Source: Pseudodesulfovibrio sp. zrk46 (lineage in GTDB: Bacteria; Desulfobacterota; Desulfovibrionia; Desulfovibrionales; Desulfovibrionaceae). From it: a stretch of DNA of 64,000 nucleotides. This document shows positions 23,600 through 63,858 of the stretch, piece by piece. The notes under the pieces are model-generated. The model was not told where the DNA came from. It did no database searches and worked only from the letters and a program-made list of their open reading frames with translations. Where the stretch lies: positions 310,001 through 374,000 of the forward strand of contig NZ_CP051216.1 in NCBI RefSeq assembly GCF_012516435.1. The letters run 5' to 3'. Made by a program: the position numbers and the translations under genes. Each line of letters opens with the position of its first letter. Within the stretch, counting starts at the first letter, position 1.

Positions 23600-24203
23600 T
23601 AACCCGCTTCGCGGTTGCCTCCGGCGGCCAAGGGGGAAGGGGAGAGAAGGAAACCATTTGAAAATGGTTGTCCCTCTCTCCCCTTCCCCCTTGGAACCCC
23701 CATCCCCTCTCTCCCTTCCTAAACTTTTTGTCGCTCGCTTCGCTCGGGCTCTTCGTTGTCGGGCAACTTCAGCTCTTTTCCCCTGTTCGACTGACATTCA
23801 AAGACCTGCACCAGCCCTTGATTCAAGAGGTTTAGAAGCAGACCAAGCGGCAGGCAGCGTCTTGTTCGGTTTTGCACTGGAGCGCAGCGGAAGTACGCAA
23901 AAGCGAAAGCTGCCAGCTTGGATCAGATTCTTAGACCGTGATCACAAGGCGGGGAGCACACAAAGCCGAGTTTCTTTGGTTCTTTCTTGGGGCGGCTCAG
24001 CCAAGAAAGAACCCCGCCGGGAGGGCATGGAGGAGCGAAAGCGACGGCTCTTTTTGCCTTTCGCGCCATCAGCGCGCATCTTTCAAACAATCGCCGCCCG
24101 CTTCGGGCGGCTTTCCTTATCTATTCTGCCTTTCTCTTCATTGCCTTTTCCCCGCCACCCGCGTAAATTCACCTCTCTTCACAACATTAACACCACCGAG
24201 AAT
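23600..24203. repeat. Composite intergenic hairpin repeat, copy b
   Basis: No gene is seen in these 604 bp. In order: GCCTCCGGCGG leading into a 67 nt hairpin (23628-23694; 19 bp perfect outer stem plus an 8 bp inner stem); a GTCGCTCGCTTCGCTCGG module (to 23747); a 79 nt multi-stem hairpin (23843-23921, CCAAGC, GGCAGC and TTCGGTTTTGC arms); and a 13 bp hairpin (23978-24013) with loop GGCGGCTCAG. Related modules occur at about 28.1 and 31.8 kb. An open frame crosses it into polA but looks non-coding. Confidence 0.85.
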
Positions 24204-26912
24204 ATGTCCTTAAAAGAACGTCTCAACCTCTCCGAGGAACCCGTTTACCTGATTGATGGTACTGCTCTGCTCTACCGCGCCTTTTATGCGCGGGCCGATC
24301 TTTCCCGTTCCGACGGCTTCCCCACCAACGCGATCAACACTGTGCTTCGCGTGCTCATGAACCTGATCCGTGATGAAAAGCCCAAGCATGTGGCGTTTCT
24401 GATGGATGGCAAAGGGAAGACCTTCCGTAATGATTTGTATGATCAGTACAAGGCCAACCGCCCGCCCATGCCGGAGCCGCTGGCCGAGCAGATCGAGCCG
24501 GTTCGCAAGGGTGTGGAGCTGCTGGGCTTCAACCTCCTGATCTCGGACGGCGTTGAGGCGGATGACTGCATTTGCGCGCTGGCCAACAAGTACAAGGCGG
24601 ATCGCCCGGTGGTTATCATGGCCTCGGACAAGGACCTCAAGCAGTGCCTGGACACCAATGTGTTCATGGTCAGTCAGCACGGTCGCAAGGAGACCATCTA
24701 CACGCTGGACGGTTTCCGCGAGAAGGAAGGTATGGAGCCTGCTACATGGCCGGACTTTCAGGCCATCATCGGCGACTCGGCGGATAACATTCCCGGCATC
24801 CCTAAGGTTGGCCCGGTCACTGCGCGTAAAGTCTTTGCCGCTACCGGTCCCACGCTGGAGGATGTGCGCGACAATGTTGCCGAGCTGCCGGAGAAGCTGC
24901 GCGAGAAGGTGGAGCCGGAGCTGGAGAATATTTTCGTCTACCGCGAACTGACCCGCATGAAGACCGATTGCTGCGATGTGCCTGTCGATGACTTTGTGCT
25001 GCGCGACGTGGACGCGGCCGAGCTGATGGCGTTCCTTGATGAATACGAGCTGAACGGCCTCAAGCGCATGGTGCCGAAACCGGCTGGTGCGCCCAAGAAG
25101 GCGGCCCCGAGTGGTGCGCCGTCCCTGCTGGATGTGGCTGGCGATGCCCCGGCATCCGCTCCCAAGGCTGCGGCCAAGAAGAAGGCTCCGGCTGGTGATG
25201 GCATGTTGTCCCTGTTCGGCGATGCCCCGGCGACTCCCGAGGAGCCGAGCGAGCCGCTTCCGGTGGTGGATGCGGAGAGCGCGGGCGACCTGCCGGGTCT
25301 GGCTGGCGAGGACGTGGGACTGGTCTTTGAGGACGATGCATTTTTCATTGGTCTGGAAGGCAAGGAATACCGCTACAGCGGCGCGGTGGCCGATCTGGTC
25401 CGGGCGCTGGAACACGCGTCTGTCATTGCCACGCCGAGCGTACAGGAGCTGCTTCGTGCTGATGAGGCGTGGGCATACCTGCTGCCGTCCCAGTGGTTTG
25501 ACCTGAGCCTTGCCGCGTACCTGCTCGACCCCGAGGCGCGCAACTACACGTGGGCGCGGCTGCGCCAGTCCTTGTATCAGGATGGCCGCTCCGAGTTCTC
25601 GAACGTGGCCGCCGAGCTGCATCCTCATGCCAAGGCGCTGGCTGCGCTGGGCTATATGCAGGGCATCAAGGGACAGGTGGAGAGCGCCGAGCTGGAACCG
25701 CTGATGCGCGATCTGGAGCTGCCGCTGATCCCGGCGCTGGTGTCCATGGAAAAGGCGGGCATTTACATTGATCAGGCCGCGTTCAAGGATTTTCTGGATG
25801 ACGTATCCGAACAGCTAGCCGCGCTGACGCGCTCGATTATCGAGCACGCGGGCCATGAGTTCAACATCCGCTCCAGCCAGCAGTTGGCGGTGGTGCTGTT
25901 CGACGAACTGGATATCAAGGCCGGGTCCAAGACGGCCACAGGGCAACGCTCCACAGCGAATGCGGTGCTGGAGAAGATTCGCGGCAAGCATCCCATTGTG
26001 GAAGACATTCTGGAATACCGGATGCTGGAAAAACTGCGCTCCACCTATCTGGCCCCGCTGCCCAAGATGGCGGACGAGGCATCGCGCCTGCACACCCAGT
26101 TCAACCAGTTGAGCACGGCCACGGGTCGCCTCTCCAGCTCCAAGCCGAATTTGCAGAACATCCCGATTCGCGGCAAGTACGGCCCAAGAATGCGCGGCTG
26201 CTTCACGGCGGCGGAAGGGAATCTGCTGGCAGCAGCGGATTACTCGCAGATCGAACTGCGCGTGCTGGCCCACTTCTCCCAAGACCCTGCCCTGCTGGAT
26301 GCCTTCCGCAATGACGAGGACATCCACACCCGCACGGCGGCGCTGATCATGGACAAGACCGTGGAGGAAGTGCTGCCGGACGAACGCCGCAACGCCAAGA
26401 CCATCAACTTCGGCCTGATCTACGGCATGGGCGTGCAGAAACTGGCGCGCGAGCTGAAGATCAAACAAACCGAGGCCAAGGAATTCACCGAACGATACTT
26501 TGAAAAACTGGCGACCCTGAAGGCGTACTACGACGACATCGTAAAAGACGCCCAAAACAACGGCTTCGTGACCACACTGGCCGGACGCCGCCGCCTGCTG
26601 CCGGAGCTCCACTCCCGCAACAACATGCTCGCCAGCGAAGCCCGCCGTCAGGCCGTGAACACGGTCATTCAGGGCACGGCCGCCGACATCATCAAAATGG
26701 CCATGGTAGCCGCCTACGGCGACAAACAACTCAAGGACCTCGGCGCCAACCTGATCCTGCAGGTACACGATGAATTGATAGTCGAAGCCCCCGCCGAAAG
26801 CATCGAAGCCGCCGGAGCCCGCCTCGTAGAAATCATGCAGGGCGCAGCGAACTTGGATGTCCCATTAAAGGTAGATATGGGTGTAGGGAAAAGTTGGGCT
26901 GAGGCTCATTAG
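24204..26912 (+). CDS. polA: DNA polymerase I
   Basis: Repair and Okazaki-fragment polymerase, 902 residues. Residues 1-290 are the 5'-3' flap exonuclease (YLIDGTALLYRAFYA, EADDCICALA, ASDKDLKQC, GIPKVGPVTARK). An Ala/Pro/Lys-rich linker is at about 300-365. The region of the 3'-5' exonuclease (about 370-530) lacks the expected DxE catalytic motif, so proofreading is probably lost. The polymerase domain has DYSQIELRVLAHFS, RRNAKTINFGLIYGMG and QVHDELIVE. The start at 24204 matches the family; upstream codons belong to the repeat. Confidence 0.96.
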   Translation: MSLKERLNLSEEPVYLIDGTALLYRAFYARADLSRSDGFPTNAINTVLRVLMNLIRDEKPKHVAFLMDGKGKTFRNDLYDQYKANRPPMPEPLAEQIEPVRKGVELLGFNLLISDGVEADDCICALANKYKADRPVVIMASDKDLKQCLDTNVFMVSQHGRKETIYTLDGFREKEGMEPATWPDFQAIIGDSADNIPGIPKVGPVTARKVFAATGPTLEDVRDNVAELPEKLREKVEPELENIFVYRELTRMKTDCCDVPVDDFVLRDVDAAELMAFLDEYELNGLKRMVPKPAGAPKKAAPSGAPSLLDVAGDAPASAPKAAAKKKAPAGDGMLSLFGDAPATPEEPSEPLPVVDAESAGDLPGLAGEDVGLVFEDDAFFIGLEGKEYRYSGAVADLVRALEHASVIATPSVQELLRADEAWAYLLPSQWFDLSLAAYLLDPEARNYTWARLRQSLYQDGRSEFSNVAAELHPHAKALAALGYMQGIKGQVESAELEPLMRDLELPLIPALVSMEKAGIYIDQAAFKDFLDDVSEQLAALTRSIIEHAGHEFNIRSSQQLAVVLFDELDIKAGSKTATGQRSTANAVLEKIRGKHPIVEDILEYRMLEKLRSTYLAPLPKMADEASRLHTQFNQLSTATGRLSSSKPNLQNIPIRGKYGPRMRGCFTAAEGNLLAAADYSQIELRVLAHFSQDPALLDAFRNDEDIHTRTAALIMDKTVEEVLPDERRNAKTINFGLIYGMGVQKLARELKIKQTEAKEFTERYFEKLATLKAYYDDIVKDAQNNGFVTTLAGRRRLLPELHSRNNMLASEARRQAVNTVIQGTAADIIKMAMVAAYGDKQLKDLGANLILQVHDELIVEAPAESIEAAGARLVEIMQGAANLDVPLKVDMGVGKSWAEAH

Positions 26913-26967: not shown

Positions 26968-27094
26968 GAATTACAAACAAGTCTCTCAAGAGCTATCATG
27001 AACATAAACCACAACCATCCTGACTCATTGGCACAATGACGAAAACTTGATACAGGAAAACAAATTCCATCATAAGCCAACAATCGAGTTAGAA

Positions 27095-28069
27095 ATGATT
27101 ACCGCCTCTCCTTCGGATACGATTTCCTTTCATTTCGATGTCCCTAATAAAATGATTTCTGCAAATACCTTAGCTGGAATAGCAAAGGGACTTGAGCAAA
27201 TAACAGATACTGTTTTTGAAGAGACTTTAGAAGGAGCAAAAAAAACAGAAGTTTATCTTTGTATACCCCGAGAGGGATGCTTCGAAGCAATCTTTCAGGT
27301 TGTTGTCCCTGTGATAACCGGCGCATTTGTTTCCATTGCTTCGAAATCCTTTATCAACACTTTTTTGAAAGACATGATCGGGAAAGATCTTTCTGAATTG
27401 AGCGAATTTTCAGCAACAAAACTATCCGACTCTTTGAAAGAAAATCTTCTTATAAATTATGCTTGTACAGCTATAAGCGAATATCTCGATAGGCCATACT
27501 CTGAACTGCAATGCCGTAACAATGAAGATTACTTGAACAAAAGGCTAGTTGTCCTGAAAGCTAAAAACCTAATCTACGAACACATGGAAGAGGACAATCG
27601 TATTAAAGCTGTATCGTATAAAGGAGATGACTACATAGATAGGGAAGATTTCTCTAAATACATTGCTCCGTTGCCAGACAATGATGATGAACTATGCGAA
27701 CACAGCTTCTATCACGGAAAGATAAAAATAATTTCCCCTGTAAGCCTAAAAGAGAAAAGCCGACGGGGATGGACGTGTTTCTTCCTAAGTGATCTTCAAA
27801 ACAAGACTGAAAGAACATTTGAAATTGATGATGATAGATTTCGAAATTACGCAATCACACAAGATATCAAACTAGCGGCTGACGACATTGCAGAAGTGCA
27901 AATGATTAAAGACAACGAATTGACTCCTCAATGGCGTGTACTTCGTGTCCTTAAATTTGATGGGGAAAGCATATCTCCGCCGTTAACCAATGAAGAATTG
28001 AGCAAATTGAGCATCAAAACATTTTTTACAAAGAAACAACAACAAGCGAATTTACTGGACAACTGCTAG
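27095..28069 (+). CDS. AT-rich orphan protein, probable accessory gene
   Basis: Not recognised. About 324 residues from the ATG at 27095; a TTG at 27047 would add 16. An N-terminal domain (about 1-75) alternates strands and helices (ISFHFDVPNKMISANTLAGIA, later EVYLCIPREGCFEAIFQ). A hydrophobic segment VVVPVITGAFVSIASK (about 77-92) is followed by a helical section. The C-terminal domain (about 180-300) is strand-rich. The layout recalls small phage or mobile-element proteins with one membrane-seeking stretch, but that is only a resemblance. Its base composition and use of ATA, AAA and TTA codons differ sharply from both neighbours, pointing to transfer. Confidence 0.7.
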   Translation: MITASPSDTISFHFDVPNKMISANTLAGIAKGLEQITDTVFEETLEGAKKTEVYLCIPREGCFEAIFQVVVPVITGAFVSIASKSFINTFLKDMIGKDLSELSEFSATKLSDSLKENLLINYACTAISEYLDRPYSELQCRNNEDYLNKRLVVLKAKNLIYEHMEEDNRIKAVSYKGDDYIDREDFSKYIAPLPDNDDELCEHSFYHGKIKIISPVSLKEKSRRGWTCFFLSDLQNKTERTFEIDDDRFRNYAITQDIKLAADDIAEVQMIKDNELTPQWRVLRVLKFDGESISPPLTNEELSKLSIKTFFTKKQQQANLLDNC

Positions 28070-28075
28070 CTCAGC

Positions 28076-28527
28076 CTAGTGTCCAAGCGGCTTAGAAGCT
28101 GACCAAGCGGCAGGCAGCGTCTTGCTCGTTCTTGCACTGGAGCGAAGCGGAAGAACGCAAGAACGAGAGCTGCCAGCTTGGATCAGATTCTTGCCAGCGG
28201 ACACCGGGCGCCCGCGCTCGGAAAAGCCGCGTTTTTTTCGTTCTTTTTTGGGGCGGCTCAGCCAAAAAAGAACCGCCGTCCGCGCAGGACGCCTCCGGCA
28301 GGAATCCTTCCATAAAATCGCCGCCGAAAGGCGGCCTTCCTTCATCTCTTCCCTCATCTCTTCCTTCTTCCCCTCCCCCTCACCCGACCCCCAACCCAAC
28401 CTTATAATCCTATTTACCTTTCCCCCAACAACCCATATCAATACACTCATACACCATACTCGCTAAAATAACGCCTTCAACACCGACGCCGACCACGGCG
28501 TGATTTCGCAATATTACGGGAGATTCA
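28076..28527. repeat. Composite intergenic hairpin repeat, copy c
   Basis: No gene is seen. The region begins six bases after the orphan gene. A long hairpin (28099-28186) has arms CTGACCAAGC/GCTTGGATCAG, GGCAGC/GCTGCC and CTCGTTCTTGC/GCAAGAACGAG. A second hairpin (28240-28273) pairs GTTCTTTTTTGG with CCAAAAAAGAAC around the loop GGCGGCTCAG. Both match copy b in position and shape but differ by paired base changes. From about 28330 to 28470 the sequence is C+T-rich with no visible signal; a GGGAGA Shine-Dalgarno precedes the next gene. Confidence 0.85.
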
Positions 28528-29766
28528 ATGGAAATAATCGTCGACCATAGCGGTTGCTGTACTGAACTCGGCACGAGCATTTCCAAACTGGTCTCCCAAG
28601 GCTGCAAATCCATCATGCTGATGCAGGCGGAAGACATCATCCACAATATCCCCCGATATAAGGGTATGCTCGACAAGGCGTTGAGCGTTGCCTCCAAAAA
28701 CGGTGTCCAGATTTTCGGGGGCATCTTCCCGACCGTTTTCGCTGGAGAAACCTTCCTCGATAAGGGAAGTATCCTGGCTGGCATCGACTCCGAAGTGCAT
28801 GTCGTCACGCTGGAAAACATCACCGCCAACAACATCCTCCCCCAGATAGAGGAGGGAATTGCTCCCATCCAAAACCAATTGAAACAGGGCGACTTCAACA
28901 CGCTGTTCGTCTTTGGTGACGGGTTTGGCGAAATCAATCTGGAGCTGATGGACGGCCTGAACCACATCGTCCGGAAATACCCCATGAATGTTATCGGCGG
29001 CATGACGGGCCGGGGCAGACTGAAGGTCTCGCATTACAGTATTTTCTCGCCGGAGAAGCTCATCCAGAACGGCGCGGTGCTCGCCTTCACCCGGCTCAAG
29101 AGCAGCGTCGGCGTCAGACATGGCTGGACCCCGCTGAAAGGCGCGGAGCTGGAGATAACGAAAAACAACGGCTGCTTTGTCGAGCGCATCGACAACACGC
29201 GGGCCTTTGACCGGTATGTCCAGATCGTATCCGATTACGATGAGAAGAGCGGCACACTCCTGGCCACGGAGTACGCCAATCCGGACACCTTCTTCAACAT
29301 CGCCGTGAAATATCCGCTGGGCCTCATCAGAGAGGAGAACGGGAAGACGACCTACATTGACCGCACCCCGCTGGGTGTTGGCGCAGATAGATCGCTCCAG
29401 TTCTCCGTTGAAATTCCCGAAGGGACCAAGGCCTGCCTGATGGAACTGGAGGGAAAATCCGACGCGGAGAAATGCCAGTCACTGGCAAAGGCGTCCATTG
29501 CGGCCTATGACGAGGCCAAGAAGACCCTGCCGTCCGAGGTCAAGGACTCCAGAGTGATCATGATGGATTGCTTCGGCAGAAAAATGGCCGTGGAGCGCAT
29601 GCAGAGCGTCTACTCCCAGATTGAGCTGAAAGCCATCGCCGAAGATCAAAAGGCCATTCCCAATTCCCCCATTGGCGCCCTCTGCTTTGGGGAAATCTCC
29701 AGCATGGGCGACAGACACGTCGAGCTCCACAACAAGACGGCAGTCGTCGGCCTGGTGGAAGACTAG
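28528..29766 (+). CDS. FIST-domain sensory protein
   Basis: A 412-residue cytoplasmic protein with FIST N (about 10-210) and FIST C (about 225-395) domains, a module thought to bind small ligands such as amino acids and usually tied to signalling proteins. Supporting stretches: FGGIFPTVFAGE, TLFVFGDGFGE, VIGGMTGRG, and SPIGALCFGEISSMG near the end. No kinase, cyclase or MCP domain is attached, so any output partner must be encoded elsewhere. GGGAGA precedes the ATG. Confidence 0.85.
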   Translation: MEIIVDHSGCCTELGTSISKLVSQGCKSIMLMQAEDIIHNIPRYKGMLDKALSVASKNGVQIFGGIFPTVFAGETFLDKGSILAGIDSEVHVVTLENITANNILPQIEEGIAPIQNQLKQGDFNTLFVFGDGFGEINLELMDGLNHIVRKYPMNVIGGMTGRGRLKVSHYSIFSPEKLIQNGAVLAFTRLKSSVGVRHGWTPLKGAELEITKNNGCFVERIDNTRAFDRYVQIVSDYDEKSGTLLATEYANPDTFFNIAVKYPLGLIREENGKTTYIDRTPLGVGADRSLQFSVEIPEGTKACLMELEGKSDAEKCQSLAKASIAAYDEAKKTLPSEVKDSRVIMMDCFGRKMAVERMQSVYSQIELKAIAEDQKAIPNSPIGALCFGEISSMGDRHVELHNKTAVVGLVED

Positions 29767-29804
29767 AACCGCCTCTTTCTCTCCCAATTGTCATGCCAGC
29801 GTTG

Positions 29805-29832
29805 TTGACATATCCGCATAAGCGGATATGTT
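29805..29832 (+). promoter_or_regulatory. ars promoter with overlapping ArsR operator
   Basis: TTGACA (29805-29810) and TATGTT (29827-29832) are 16 bp apart. Between and over them lies a perfect inverted repeat, ACATATCCGC - ATAA - GCGGATATGT (29808-29831). Bound ArsR would block RNA polymerase. The predicted transcription start falls at or next to the arsR ATG at 29839, so the mRNA may be leaderless. Confidence 0.75.
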
Positions 29833-29838
29833 CATTCA

Positions 29839-30195
29839 ATGATTCAACTCGCTGAAAAACTCAAAGCCCTTTCCGACCCGACGCGGCTGCGCGTGCTGCG
29901 TCTGCTCGACCACGGAGAATTATGTGTGTGCGACCTGATGGAGGGGCTTGATCTGCCCCAGTCCAAAGTCTCGCGACACATGTCATTCCTGAAAAATGCG
30001 GGATGGGTGCAGAGCCAACGCAAGGGGAAGTGGGTATACTACTCTCTCGCCCACTCTGACGACAACATTCAGGCAGCGATGCAGCGGATATTGTGCGAGC
30101 TTCTTCCCGACCGGGACGAGGCCAAGGAAGATTATGCGCGACTGCTGGCGTTCCTGAAAACCAAGAAAGCCGACTCCTGCTCAACGGACGGTTAA
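29839..30195 (+). CDS. arsR: ArsR-family arsenic-responsive repressor
   Basis: A 118-residue winged-helix repressor of the operon it heads. The metalloid site ELCVCDLMEGL (CxC near residues 32-34) sits at the start of the DNA-binding region, followed by the recognition helix PQSKVSRHMSFLKNAGW and the wing RKGKWVYYSL. As(III) binding to these cysteines should release the promoter palindrome. No Shine-Dalgarno lies ahead of the ATG. Confidence 0.93.
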   Translation: MIQLAEKLKALSDPTRLRVLRLLDHGELCVCDLMEGLDLPQSKVSRHMSFLKNAGWVQSQRKGKWVYYSLAHSDDNIQAAMQRILCELLPDRDEAKEDYARLLAFLKTKKADSCSTDG

Positions 30196-30204
30196 GAGGT
30201 CACC

Positions 30205-31308
30205 ATGTCTGAATCGACCATGAAACGTTTGTCCTTTCTGGACCGCTATCTGACCCTGTGGATTTTCCTCGCCATGTTCGTGGGCGTGGGCACCGGCTAT
30301 CTGTACCCGGACGTGAAGAACGTCATCAACAGCTTTCAGGTGGGCACGACCAACATCCCCATCGCCATCGGCCTGATTCTGATGATGTATCCGCCGCTGG
30401 CCAAGGTGAAATACGAGCAGCTCGGACAGGTGTTTCGCAACTACAAGGTGCTGGTGTTGTCGCTGGTACAGAACTGGGTGATCGGCCCGGTGCTGATGTT
30501 CGGCCTGGCCATCACCATGCTCTCGGGCCAGCATGACTACATGGTCGGCCTGATCCTGATCGGGCTGGCGCGCTGTATCGCCATGGTCATCGTATGGAAC
30601 GATCTGGCCAAGGGCGATACCGAGTATTGCGCCGGGCTGGTGGCGTTCAACTCCATCTTTCAGGTGATCTTTTTCTCGGTGTACGCCTACATTTTCATCA
30701 CCGTGCTGCCCGGCTGGTTCGGCATGGAAGGCGTGGTGGTGGATATCTCCATGGGCCAGATCGCCGAGTCCGTATTCATCTATCTCGGCATCCCGTTCCT
30801 TGGCGGTATGCTGTCCCGTCTCATCGGCATCAAGCTCAAAGGCCGCGAGTGGTACGAGACCGTGTTCATTCCTAAGATCAGCCCGCTGACGCTCGTCTTC
30901 CTGCTGTTCACCATCCTCGTGATGTTCTCCCTGAAGGGCGACATGGTGGTGCAACTGCCCATGGACGTCATCCGCATCGCCATCCCGCTGACCATCTACT
31001 TCCTGATCATGTTCCTCGTCTCCTTCTACCTCTCCATGAAGGCCGACGCCACCTATGAGCAGGCCACGACGCTCAGCTTCACGGCCGCGTCCAACAACTT
31101 CGAGCTGGCCATCGCCGTTGCCATCGCCGTGTTCGGCATCGATTCCGGCGAGGCATTTGCCGCCGTAATCGGCCCGCTAGTCGAGGTGCCGGTGCTCATC
31201 GCGCTGGTCAACGTGGCGCTCAGGTTCAAGAAGAAGTACTTCCCATACGCCAAGGAGACCATCTCCGGCGTGTGTCACGTACAGTGCGAAACCTCTGTTC
31301 CCAAGTAA
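30205..31308 (+). CDS. acr3: Arsenite efflux transporter Acr3
   Basis: A 367-residue inner-membrane transporter with ten hydrophobic segments that exports arsenite. The conserved Cys in TM4 is present in [16 protein letters not shown], followed by [19 protein letters not shown]9-10 carry [18 protein letters not shown] and [13 protein letters not shown], the family signatures. It lies 9 bp after arsR, between the sensor and the arsenate reductase. Confidence 0.95.
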
Positions 31309-31317
31309 GGATCGACA

Positions 31318-31734
31318 ATGAATATTCTCTTTCTCTGCACCGGCAACTCCTGCCGAAGCCAAATGGCAGAAGGCTGGGCGCGCCATCTCAAGGCCGACCA
31401 ATTCAACGCCTATTCCGCGGGTATCGAGACGCACGGCATGAATGAGCGCGCCATTCAGGTAATGAAGGAGGCCGGTGTGGACATCACCGCCCACCATTCC
31501 AAGCTGCTCGACGATCTCGCAGACGTGGACTTCGACTACGTGGTCACGGTCTGCGGCCACGCACACGAGACCTGCCCCATGTTCCCCGGCAATGCCAAGG
31601 TGGTGCACGTCGGTTTCGACGACCCGCCGGGTTTGACCAAAGGCATGGAAGACGAAGACGAAATCCTCGACGTCTACCGCCGAGTCCGAGACGAAATTAA
31701 GCAATTTGTAGAAACGCTGCCTGAAGGCATTTAA
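31318..31734 (+). CDS. arsC: Arsenate reductase (thioredoxin-coupled type)
   Basis: Reduces arsenate to arsenite for export by Acr3. It is a 138-residue low-molecular-weight phosphatase-like protein with CTGNSCRSQMAEGW at residues 7-20 (nucleophile Cys7 in this enzyme class's variant P-loop) and the redox pair Cys79 and Cys86 in VTVCGHAHETCP. This Cys triad is the thioredoxin-dependent type. It follows acr3 by 9 bp and ends the operon. Confidence 0.95.
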   Translation: MNILFLCTGNSCRSQMAEGWARHLKADQFNAYSAGIETHGMNERAIQVMKEAGVDITAHHSKLLDDLADVDFDYVVTVCGHAHETCPMFPGNAKVVHVGFDDPPGLTKGMEDEDEILDVYRRVRDEIKQFVETLPEGI

Positions 31735-32240
31735 AGATGCCTCCGGCGGCTGGGGGAAGGGGAGAGGGAAACCCTTTGAGAAGGGTTGTCCCTCTCCCCT
31801 TCCCCCAGACCCCCATCCCCTCTCCCTTCCTAAACTTTTTATCGCTCGTTTCGCTCGAGGTTACGTGAGAATATATTGCGCACGGTTTCTCCCTACGCCA
31901 TTCCGAAGACGCTAAGTCTTTACAACAAAGAACTGCAGCAGCCCTTGAACACGCAGCCTAGAAACTGACCAAATCGATTCCGCCGAGCACCAACAAATTC
32001 GGCAGCGACGAACGTCGCGCAGCACAAATCAAGGCAATCTATTTGGATCAGATTCTCAGCAAGTGATCACGAGGCGGGGAGATACTTCTTGAGCCGAGTT
32101 TTTTTCGTCTATTTTTTGGGGCGGCTCAGCCAGCCTCAGCCGTTGCCGAGTCTTCGAGGCTTACGGATGAGGACAGCAGAGATAAAAATAGACCGCCCGC
32201 CGCGGAGGCGGCCATCCGGCAGGAATCATCCATCAATCGG
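31735..32240. repeat. Composite intergenic hairpin repeat, copy d (rearranged)
   Basis: No gene is seen. GCCTCCGGCGG is followed by a hairpin (31751-31809; 19 bp stem CTGGGGGAAGGGGAGAGGG with its complement, inner AACCCTT/AAGGGTT). A CTTCCTAAAC to CGCTCGAG module lies at 31827-31859. A worn relative of the copy b/c structure follows, recognisable by TTGGATCAGATTCT, GATCACGAGGCGGGGAG and TTTTTTGGGGCGGCTCAGCCA. At about 32132 the right arm of that last hairpin is replaced by the CGAGTCTTCGAG module (32138-32184). Confidence 0.8.
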
Positions 32241-32292: not shown

Positions 32293-32901
32293 ATGATATC
32301 CAACGCGCCCATGAGCTACATGAAAGAATTCACCGCAGCGTGTTCCCAGACCCGCAAACTCGATATCGGCGACATCACCCTCGCCGAAGACGGCATGGCC
32401 ATCGATCAGACCGTACTCAATGCGGTAGAAGCCACCGGGCATATTCCGTTCCCGCTCCGTGCGGAAAACGGCTTCAACGTCAACTTCGGCATGTTCCACA
32501 TGTTGGCGAAAAAATTTCACATCCCCGGCGCAACCATGACGCTGGGCAACGTGGCCGTGAACGGCGAAATGCGCTTCCCGGCGGAGTTGCCGCACTTCAA
32601 GAAGATGCTCAAAGAGCAGTCCGGTGAAGAGAACATGGGACAGTACCACCTGTGGACTACCCTGCCCGGCGGATACATCCTCGACCACGCCATCATGTCC
32701 GGCCTGCACAGGGACGGCATCGTGGAAGTGAACGAAGCGGTCCCGACCGAACGGTACCTGTACGGCAAGGCCGACGAGCTGCCGCACGGACTGACCTATC
32801 ACCCCATGATCGTGGGACTGGAGTTCTTCGTGGCGTCCGGCACCATCGATCAGGAAGCCCTCGAATACCTGATGGGCGAACGGTTTCCGAAGCAGTATTA
32901 G
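32293..32901 (+). CDS. Hypothetical protein, 202 residues
   Basis: Not recognised. It is soluble, with no signal peptide or membrane segment. Mixed alpha/beta character with the segments GHIPFPLRAENGFNVNFG, FHIPGATMTLGNVAVNG, YHLWTTLPGGYILDH and GLTYHPMIVGLEFFV. The start is unsure, as no Shine-Dalgarno precedes the ATG at 32293 or the one at 32311. Its base use matches the core genes, so it is probably an ordinary chromosomal gene though it follows a repeat block. Confidence 0.7.
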   Translation: MISNAPMSYMKEFTAACSQTRKLDIGDITLAEDGMAIDQTVLNAVEATGHIPFPLRAENGFNVNFGMFHMLAKKFHIPGATMTLGNVAVNGEMRFPAELPHFKKMLKEQSGEENMGQYHLWTTLPGGYILDHAIMSGLHRDGIVEVNEAVPTERYLYGKADELPHGLTYHPMIVGLEFFVASGTIDQEALEYLMGERFPKQY

Positions 32902-63738: not shown

Positions 63739-63858
63739 GGCTTCGTATAGCGGCACATCTGCTGCGTTGGAAGGCGCGAGCCAATCCTCACCGTAGCTAG
63801 GCTACGCCTCCGGGTGGCTCGTGCCTTCCGCCTTGCAGCTGCACCACTTTACGAAGCC
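63739..63858. repeat. 120 bp long hairpin repeat
   Basis: A large imperfect inverted repeat. Outer arms are GGCTTCGTA/TACGAAGCC, middle arms GGAAGGCGCGAGCCA/TGGCTCGTGCCTTCC (one G:T position), and tip CGTAGC/GCTACG. It resembles intergenic elements I recall from other sulfate reducers. It contains no frame and no T tract. Confidence 0.75.

Follow-up and report, generated by a model that had tools for sequence, protein, structure and literature searches.

The folded element described here, three copies of which lie in the 64-kb window (the whole stretch of 64,000 nucleotides of Pseudodesulfovibrio sp. zrk46 that was analysed), has a real and strongly selected fold and is a repeat that moves or has recently moved. 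At several sites it forms the edge of inserted cargo genes, for whose movement it may serve as the handle. The reading that we prefer, with a probability of roughly 40%, is that the element is the folded end of short, non-autonomous mobile gene cassettes that are moved by an enzyme encoded elsewhere. The element is larger and more widely spread than the original prediction, an intergenic repeat with two hairpins and a fixed loop, had described.

The folded core of the first copy (copy A; 23816..24013, + strand) comprises an outer stem P1 (23816-23823/23940-23949), a conserved helix P2 (23834-23842/23923-23931) with one broken pair (AGAAGCAGA), a variable P3 domain (23843-23922), a pseudoknot S1 (23964-23968/23993-23997), a pyrimidine segment L1 that is the putative third strand (23971-23977), and a hairpin S2 (23978-23990/24001-24013) with the loop GGCGGCTCAG. 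S2 is hairpin 2 of the original prediction; the arms of hairpin 1 lie at 23865-23875 and 23897-23907, with one G.G mismatch. Copy B (28094..28273, +) has its P2 at 28094-28102/28183-28191, beginning 24 nt past the end of the cargo gene g2, its S1 from 28225 and its S2 at 28240-28251/28262-28273; its hairpin 1 is CTCGTTCTTGC/GCAAGAACGAG and its hairpin 2 is GTTCTTTTTTGG/CCAAAAAAGAAC. In copy C (31960..32193, +), with P2 at 31960-31968/32048-32056, S2 is formed by 32107-32119 and by 32130-32132 together with 32184-32193, the 3' arm being split by a 51-nt insertion (32133-32183). Both hairpins were thus confirmed at their predicted positions in the copies at 23.8 and 28.1 kb. The number of three copies also held, but the core of the third lies at 31.95-32.19 kb rather than at 31.8 kb, and the stretches 23.63-23.75 and 31.74-31.86 kb, which had been assigned to the same element, instead form a second, separate repeat (alpha). 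The loop string of hairpin 2 occurs three times in the window versus 0.2 expected, and the zrk46 genome (4.08 Mb) contains TTGGATCAGATTCT 27 times as an exact match and the hairpin-2 core 28 times with at most three mismatches. A terminator-like hairpin 3' of copy A (24093..24111, +) may originally have terminated the DHH gene.

In the 97 distinct elements that were parsed, a sample of the existing copies drawn from fetched loci of the genus, the order from 5' to 3' is P1, P2, P3 with a central domain, a spacer, a loop-pairing segment, a pyrimidine run and the last hairpin. P1 varies in sequence across many copies, P2 has the best conserved sequence (AGAAGCUGA with UCAG-A-UUCU), and P3 goes with a central domain of 25-117 nt. 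The segment before the last hairpin (for example, AGCCGC) can pair with the hairpin loop (GCGGCU), which yields an H-type pseudoknot, and the pyrimidine run 5' of the hairpin (UUUCUUU or UUUUUU) matches the purine strand of the hairpin in parallel orientation.

The evidence for the fold comes from a comparison of each element's own two arms with arms swapped between elements, in 5000 permutations that are not tree-aware. In the genus set, no permutation reached the cognate score for P1 (8.63 versus 6.43 swapped, n = 77), P3 (7.98 versus 5.18, n = 48), the pseudoknot S1 (7.18 versus 6.07, n = 63) or the hairpin S2 (13.96 versus 7.91, n = 34), so that the paired changes noticed in the original prediction exceed chance. 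Within the zrk46 genome alone, P1 (n = 22) and P3 (n = 10) were still significant (0/5000 each), and the pseudoknot pairing was not (360/5000, n = 13). In 9 of 97 rows, CCGA/UCGG replaces CUGA/UCAG in P2, and one-sided intermediates do not occur. Among 19 sequences of several phyla, the pseudoknot comprised 5.05 bp versus 2.77 bp for swapped arms (0/10000 permutations), with stems as unlike as UCUUGAU/AUCAAGA and CAAAGCAA/UUGCUUUG, and pairing was retained across more than ten different sequences; in L181 it is limited to 3 bp. Because MAFFT failed to register the pseudoknot in the diverse set (alignments A2 and A3), a script was used to count pairings, and a set of ten in-register sequences (A4) served for a second count, in which an independent tool gave a covariation score of 0.235 versus 0.101 after shuffling (0/500); slid controls reached at most 0.110, all below the true register. 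Selection for a folded single strand, as had been proposed, is well supported by these covariation tests, none of which takes the tree into account, and the fold is conserved more than the sequence.

The putative third strand shows a corresponding pattern. An inner C in the pyrimidine run and an AAGAAA pattern in the purine strand of the hairpin occur together in 45 of the 97 elements and are both lacking in 52, with no mixed case, an agreement that rests on 14 and 25 distinct combinations, respectively. This is the pattern that would be expected from a triple helix with U.A-U and C.G-C triples. The match may partly reflect slippage, because the pyrimidine run and the 5' arm of the hairpin look alike.

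When RNA energies are used, 76 of 94 cores fold more stably on the element strand than on the opposite one; DNA energies give 84 of 94. As both energy sets agree, the + strand of the window is probably the folded one. Judged from the sequences, the folded molecule could be RNA or single-stranded DNA. A strand test that weighed G.U pairs against A.C mismatches found no asymmetry (20:18), and this missing excess of G.U pairs speaks against a pure RNA signature. The motif GCGNAGC, which we take to be an unusually stable DNA mini-hairpin, is present in 29 of 94 central domains versus 3.7 in shuffles.

These observations bear on the alternative that the elements are amplified, transcribed, structured non-coding RNAs (or 3' UTR RNAs), in which the triple helix would protect the RNA or form a binding site and the cargo would be incidental. 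The combination of pseudoknot and triple helix is a geometry typical of RNA, and the strand preference with RNA energies, the terminator-like hairpin after copy A and a conserved strip upstream of P1 are all in line with such a role. However, the strand preference is equally strong with DNA energies, G.U pairs are not in excess, and a sigma-70-like promoter was not found in the region of copy A, with one weak match in L005 (TTGAGA/CAAAAT, 9/12). Furthermore, the ORF on the 5' side points in or away in 19 versus 14 of 33 cases (rough ORF calls), and a fixed 3' UTR element was rejected because of this mixed orientation. Transcribed RNAs are an explanation to be taken seriously, if an unlikely one, and the distribution of the insertions described next also argues against them.

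The copies of the element are insertions, which are present at some sites and absent from the same sites in relatives. The DHH gene adjoins polA in 30 of 32 other genomes of the genus that were examined, with a gap of 13-338 nt that contains element motifs in 0 of 30 cases, and it is this absence from syntenic gaps that an amplified RNA would not lead one to expect; in the window, the gap is about 600 nt. Downstream of polA (24204..26912, +; DNA_pol_A, E = 1e-144) follow the cargo ORF g2 (27047..28069, +; 340 aa), with 37.6% GC in a window of 55% GC, a PADLOC match to PDC-S42 (E = 8e-10) and no Pfam match, and then element B. A second insert between elements B and C carries a FIST-domain gene, an ArsR-type regulator, an SBF/ACR3-type transporter and an arsC-type phosphatase (28528..31734, +); its GC content of 56-58% is not AT-rich, and it is followed by an alpha repeat, element C and a gene for a 202-aa protein (32293..32901, +). 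In contrast, this last gene directly follows polA in the insert-free genomes G024 and G013 (on the other strand in G015).

The 3' end of polA is an insertion hotspot for cargo plus element in the genus. AT-rich ORFs (34-41% GC) lie directly 3' of polA and are closed by an element in the same orientation in 7 of 20 fetched genomes (G007, G008, G009, G014, G018, G022 and G033); G006 possibly has a partial insert that was missed by the pattern, and G016 has a decayed remnant. The cargo, which was compared at the polA site, varies between the genomes, save for a reversed homologue of g2 in G008 (42% identity) and a two-gene pair in G007 and G018 (40 and 45% identity). The left edge at this site is the 3' end of the gene alone, with no second element.

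PADLOC models of the PDC series, which represent phage-defence candidates and not proven systems, match six of eight cargo proteins tested at the polA site, a set that leaves out the G018 pair (PDC-S42 in g2 and G009, as well as M30A, M36A, M19A and M19B). At other sites, one of ten AT-rich neighbours had a PADLOC match, and another is a Mrr-type nuclease according to Pfam. Of the genes on the 3' side, 0 of 10 matched. For a cargo set picked post hoc by low GC, this amounts to 7/18 versus 0/10 genes on the 3' side (one-sided p = 0.027), to 7/18 versus 1/13 when polA, DHH and the 202-aa gene are added as controls (one-sided p = 0.058), and to 6/8 versus 1/13 for the polA site alone with the same controls (p = 0.003). 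It should be noted that PADLOC matches are not specific, because two ordinary genes of the window, polA and the one for the ArsR-type regulator, are likewise hit via shared domains; the DRT model RTasPolA matches the ordinary polA (24204-26912) with E = 2e-39.

Over the zrk46 copies, the 5' side of the element is not AT-richer (19/34, p = 0.11), and most copies are without cargo, while in other genomes the 5' side is AT-richer in 56 of 61 cases, partly owing to intergenic DNA. At 738.6 kb (-) and 740.6 kb (+) of zrk46, a pair of elements flanks two AT-rich genes, each element pointing away from them. Among the other families of the phylum, adjacent modules at most 5.5 kb apart are oriented outward in 13 cases, in tandem in nine and inward in one, among the matches listed. 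A type IIG restriction enzyme, an HSDR_N protein with an IS256-type transposase, a Mom protein and a HigB toxin were found between outward modules, and a caspase-type protein between tandem modules; of the 10 proteins tested that lie between modules or close to them in these families, 8 had no PADLOC match.

The many copies without cargo fit the idea of selfish dispersed repeats that occupy safe sites behind genes, where cargo is exchanged through ordinary homologous recombination, with the element as a passenger. Intergenic 3' ends of genes are indeed safe sites, near-identical copies supply the homology, and homologous exchange between repeats could yield a similar picture. Against a mere passenger stand the polA site, where the element is always found at the far end of the cargo and in the same direction (in the window and in all seven genomes), and the 13 outward pairs versus one inward pair among the matches listed. 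Such a passenger role is improbable in our view.

If the element is instead the end of mobile cassettes, the following sequence of events can be envisaged. One strand can fold as P1-P2-P3 followed by the H-type pseudoknot, and the pyrimidine run would lie on the purine strand of the hairpin as a triple helix. An enzyme encoded in trans would recognize this fold, probably on single strands during replication, and would place the unit between a stop codon and its terminator. The cargo would travel between the 3' end of a gene and an element, or between two elements. In accordance with such a scheme, some left edges lie directly behind stop codons and some units have one or two AT-rich genes 5' of the element. 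A much more specific claim is that of a hitherto undescribed mobile-cassette system with partly phage-defence-like genes, a triple-helix-pseudoknot end and insertion behind stop codons by a shape-reading enzyme. Its sites would have relatives in Desulfobacterota, Proteobacteria, Fusobacteriota and perhaps on Bacteroides plasmids, and it would amount to an integron-like trade in accessory genes without an integron integrase; taken as a whole, this claim is rather doubtful.

By analogy, the working of the element would resemble that of an integron cassette with its attC site, but outside that family. The gene cassettes of integrons share further likenesses with the element, for example, tandem units in one orientation. 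Integron cassettes are described as short gene units with an attC site that is conserved in fold, folds as a single strand and is acted on by an integrase in trans (PMC11641012). The element is likewise the end of a short gene unit, conserved in fold and not in sequence, and folded in one strand, and a fold-conserved, strand-specific site at the end of a cassette gene was found for the cargo-bearing copies only. Unlike attC arrays, however, the copies are dispersed, and they have a length of about 200 nt and a pseudoknot. Paired core sites R'' (RYYYAAC) and R' (GTTRRRY) were found in 0 of 117 elements on either strand, compared with one case in shuffled copies, which rules out identity with attC or CALIN, the latter needing no integrase. 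An integron integrase exceeded the TIGR02249 cut-off in 0 of 36 genomes of the genus; weak matches in all 36 of them and in 14 of 14 control genomes are probably other tyrosine recombinases such as Xer.

Neither a moving enzyme nor a target-site duplication or an excised form came to light. A Y1 transposase is encoded in 17, a reverse transcriptase in 10 and TnpB in 2 (one over the cut-off) of the 36 genomes of the genus, and these enzymes and the integron integrase were ruled out as drivers because their presence does not track the element. No Y1 transposase was found in G001, G004, G009, G014, G031 and G033, despite at least 15-16 element matches in each, and no reverse transcriptase in these six genomes and G018, despite at least 14-16 matches in each. 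The fixed loop had been suggested as a site for a protein or transposase. It is not simply a free protein-binding loop, because it can pair upstream of the hairpin. The guess of a transposase was right in direction, since the copies are insertions and some of them border inserted genes, although no transposase was found.

This pattern weighs on two further explanations. The first is a REP/RAYT- or IS200/IS605-type repeat moved by a Y1 transposase, or a guide-RNA remnant of TnpB elements, to which the hairpins with one folded strand, the excess of GCGNAGC and a lagging-strand bias in zrk46 (genome G000) would be suited; in view of the missing Y1 genes in six element-rich genomes and the rarity of TnpB, it is very improbable. 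REP/BIME sequences and their RAYTs are described as many intergenic palindromic copies in alternating pairs with possible single-strand processing (PMC2817692, PMC3733652, PMC6006769), and the element resembles them in all these respects. It differs in that its core, judged on length and fold, is no tagged palindrome of 20-40 bp but extends over about 200 nt with P1-P3 and a complex pseudoknot, in that Y1 does not track it, and in the cargo present at some copies. The second explanation is a retroelement, for example, an ORF-less group II intron or a retron. Group IIC introns sit near terminators, as the units do, and a large folded strand would also be at home in such an element. Reverse transcriptases, however, are lacking in the seven genomes named above, and Rfam gave no group II intron match, which leaves a retroelement with very little chance of being the answer.

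The lagging-strand bias was derived from the GC skew of 20 sampled stretches per genome, which placed the origin near 1.3 Mb in zrk46, 2.57 Mb in G009 and 0.86 Mb in G031. The origin-proximal half holds all 24 counted unpaired copies of zrk46 and, among the matches listed, 13/14 in G009 and 13/15 in G031. Copies on the lagging-strand side outnumber the others 19:5 in zrk46 (p = 0.007) and, among the matches listed, 11:3 in G009 (p = 0.057) and 8:7 in G031, so that the orientation bias is clear only in zrk46. The count leaves out 10 copies in divergent pairs and unverified hits with one or two mismatches; for this reason, a putative pair in the far half at 3.775 Mb (3775193-/3775465+), an exception to the rule, is missing from the 24/24. 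Two of the 24 copies are truncated or decayed (L016 and L027). The sampled GC content of zrk46 is mostly 54-57% in the origin-proximal half (47% in one stretch at 2.0 Mb) and 46-53% in the far half.

As had been stated at the outset, no named family fits. The covariance models of Rfam 15 gave only matches below the gathering score over the elements, mostly of miRNA type, so that every Rfam 15 family is ruled out as an identity; a true FMN riboswitch lies close to the element in L006. No paper was found with sequence strings, and no description of the element was found in the literature that the search reached, which had subscription journals and preprints outside its range. Major-groove triple-helix pseudoknots are formed by SAM-II riboswitches and telomerase RNA. 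The SAM-V riboswitch is described as an H-type pseudoknot in which a loop of pyrimidines runs along a strand of purines (PMC6061858). The element has the same layout, with a predicted triple helix, but is the 3' end of a dispersed repeat, whereas those are parts of single regulatory RNAs. Bacterial MITEs and ERIC- and RU-type repeats are described as non-autonomous, intergenic, multi-copy and foldable (PMC2267715, PMC2759123, PMC2229807), and so is the element. In contrast to MITEs, it has compensatory changes in most stems and a 3' module of similar form in other phyla. Three units of G033, in which terminal inverted repeats and target-site duplications were not seen by eye, have a T-run at the left, and two of them an A-run at the right. 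Two copies in G033 lie within a common 808-bp unit with 98.8% identity and different flanks.

A covariance model of the 3' half (R1), run over the genome and the Desulfovibrionaceae, had matches in 29 of 36 Pseudodesulfovibrio genomes, with at least 16 in 14 genomes and a single weak match in three; among the 247 genomes of the family, the 43 other genera gave no match. Thirteen of 17 named loci are Pseudodesulfovibrio MAGs and the other four are due to chance; L061, L065, L066 and L071 of the collection scan were rejected as chance matches. A model built on the cross-phylum pseudoknot module (R2) found modules of similar form in 26 of 395 genomes of the phylum (20 of 246 genera), and a pattern search in 4 of 297 genomes of the phylum; at E = 1e-4, R2 did not recover the copies of the window. 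G001, a member of the genus, holds copies of intermediate form. With BLAST, further matches were obtained on plasmids of Ilyobacter, Caballeronia, Pseudoalteromonas, Variovorax, Paraburkholderia and Bacteroides-type species, and the pattern search added two IMG/VR contigs. The pseudoknot is readable in the Ilyobacter, Caballeronia and Variovorax matches and in the IMG/VR contigs; it was not read in Pseudoalteromonas and Paraburkholderia, and it is unconvincing in the Bacteroides match (46 nt, E = 0.002). One human-gut record of the phage collection matches weakly. On the Ilyobacter polytropus plasmid (L178, L182-L188), near-identical intergenic copies share a stretch of about 115 nt upstream of the pseudoknot hairpin, and these copies are a recent amplification outside Desulfobacterota.

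If the element is truly a cassette end, R1 and R2 would offer a search handle for small insertions, which carry no recombinase and may therefore escape recombinase-based finders. It would also help to explain the arrival of single accessory or defence-like genes downstream of a housekeeping gene like polA. A repeat whose pseudoknot, perhaps along with a triple helix, is kept through near-complete turnover of the sequence would be a natural experiment on the recognition of nucleic-acid shape. Even if it were only an orphan RNA, it would be a structured family absent from Rfam 15, with tens of copies per genome and a similarly built module in other phyla.

The left edge of the insertions is visible in part. 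The motif GCCTCCG is found in 16 of 33 zrk46 copies, and the upstream stop codon can be measured in 9 of these 16, with a distance of 3-4 nt in seven and of 17 and 44 nt in two. Read by eye, 16 of the 33 copies face a structured repeat (alpha in five, beta in eight, gamma in three), 10 stand back to back with another copy and 7 do neither. The first alpha repeat of the window (23616..23746, no strand assigned) comprises GCCTCCGGCGG (23617-23627), a hairpin (23628-23651/23671-23694), a third pyrimidine strand (23697-23719) and a CGCTCGCTTCGCTCG end; it is perhaps the left edge of the copy A insertion. The second (31738..31857, no strand assigned) has its edge motif 4 nt past the stop codon of the arsC-type gene. 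Both (23628-23719 and 31745-31840) consist of a hairpin with a purine and a pyrimidine arm and then a pyrimidine strand with a parallel match to the purine arm, and, as the two copies change length in all three strands together, alpha is perhaps a second triple-helix-like module.

The beta repeat upstream of the element (L009, L010, L012, L013, L018, L020 and L024) is an extended, almost perfect hairpin (GCGATAAAAGCCG...CGGCTTTTATCGC), the two arms of which vary jointly between copies. The gamma repeat (upstream of the element in L006, L023 and L042, and at 63800-63813, -, in the window), has a length of about 210 nt and a core resembling GGAGGCGTAGCCYAGCTACGGTGAGGAC. From its sequence, it looks like another structured family, and at the three loci no Rfam family corresponds to it. 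The five back-to-back pairs of zrk46 (657.0-657.4, 665.2-665.5, 977.8-978.1, 1688.1-1688.4 and 1708.0-1708.3 kb) each combine an element of type III with one of type I, the latter carrying a GCGC variant of the pseudoknot. Tandem copies with a spacing of about 300-365 bp occur in G021 (MAG6) and G031 (L075, L063 and L134), and in G001 the 5' half of one copy (L146) has been replaced by what reads as a fragment of an IS3-type transposase gene.
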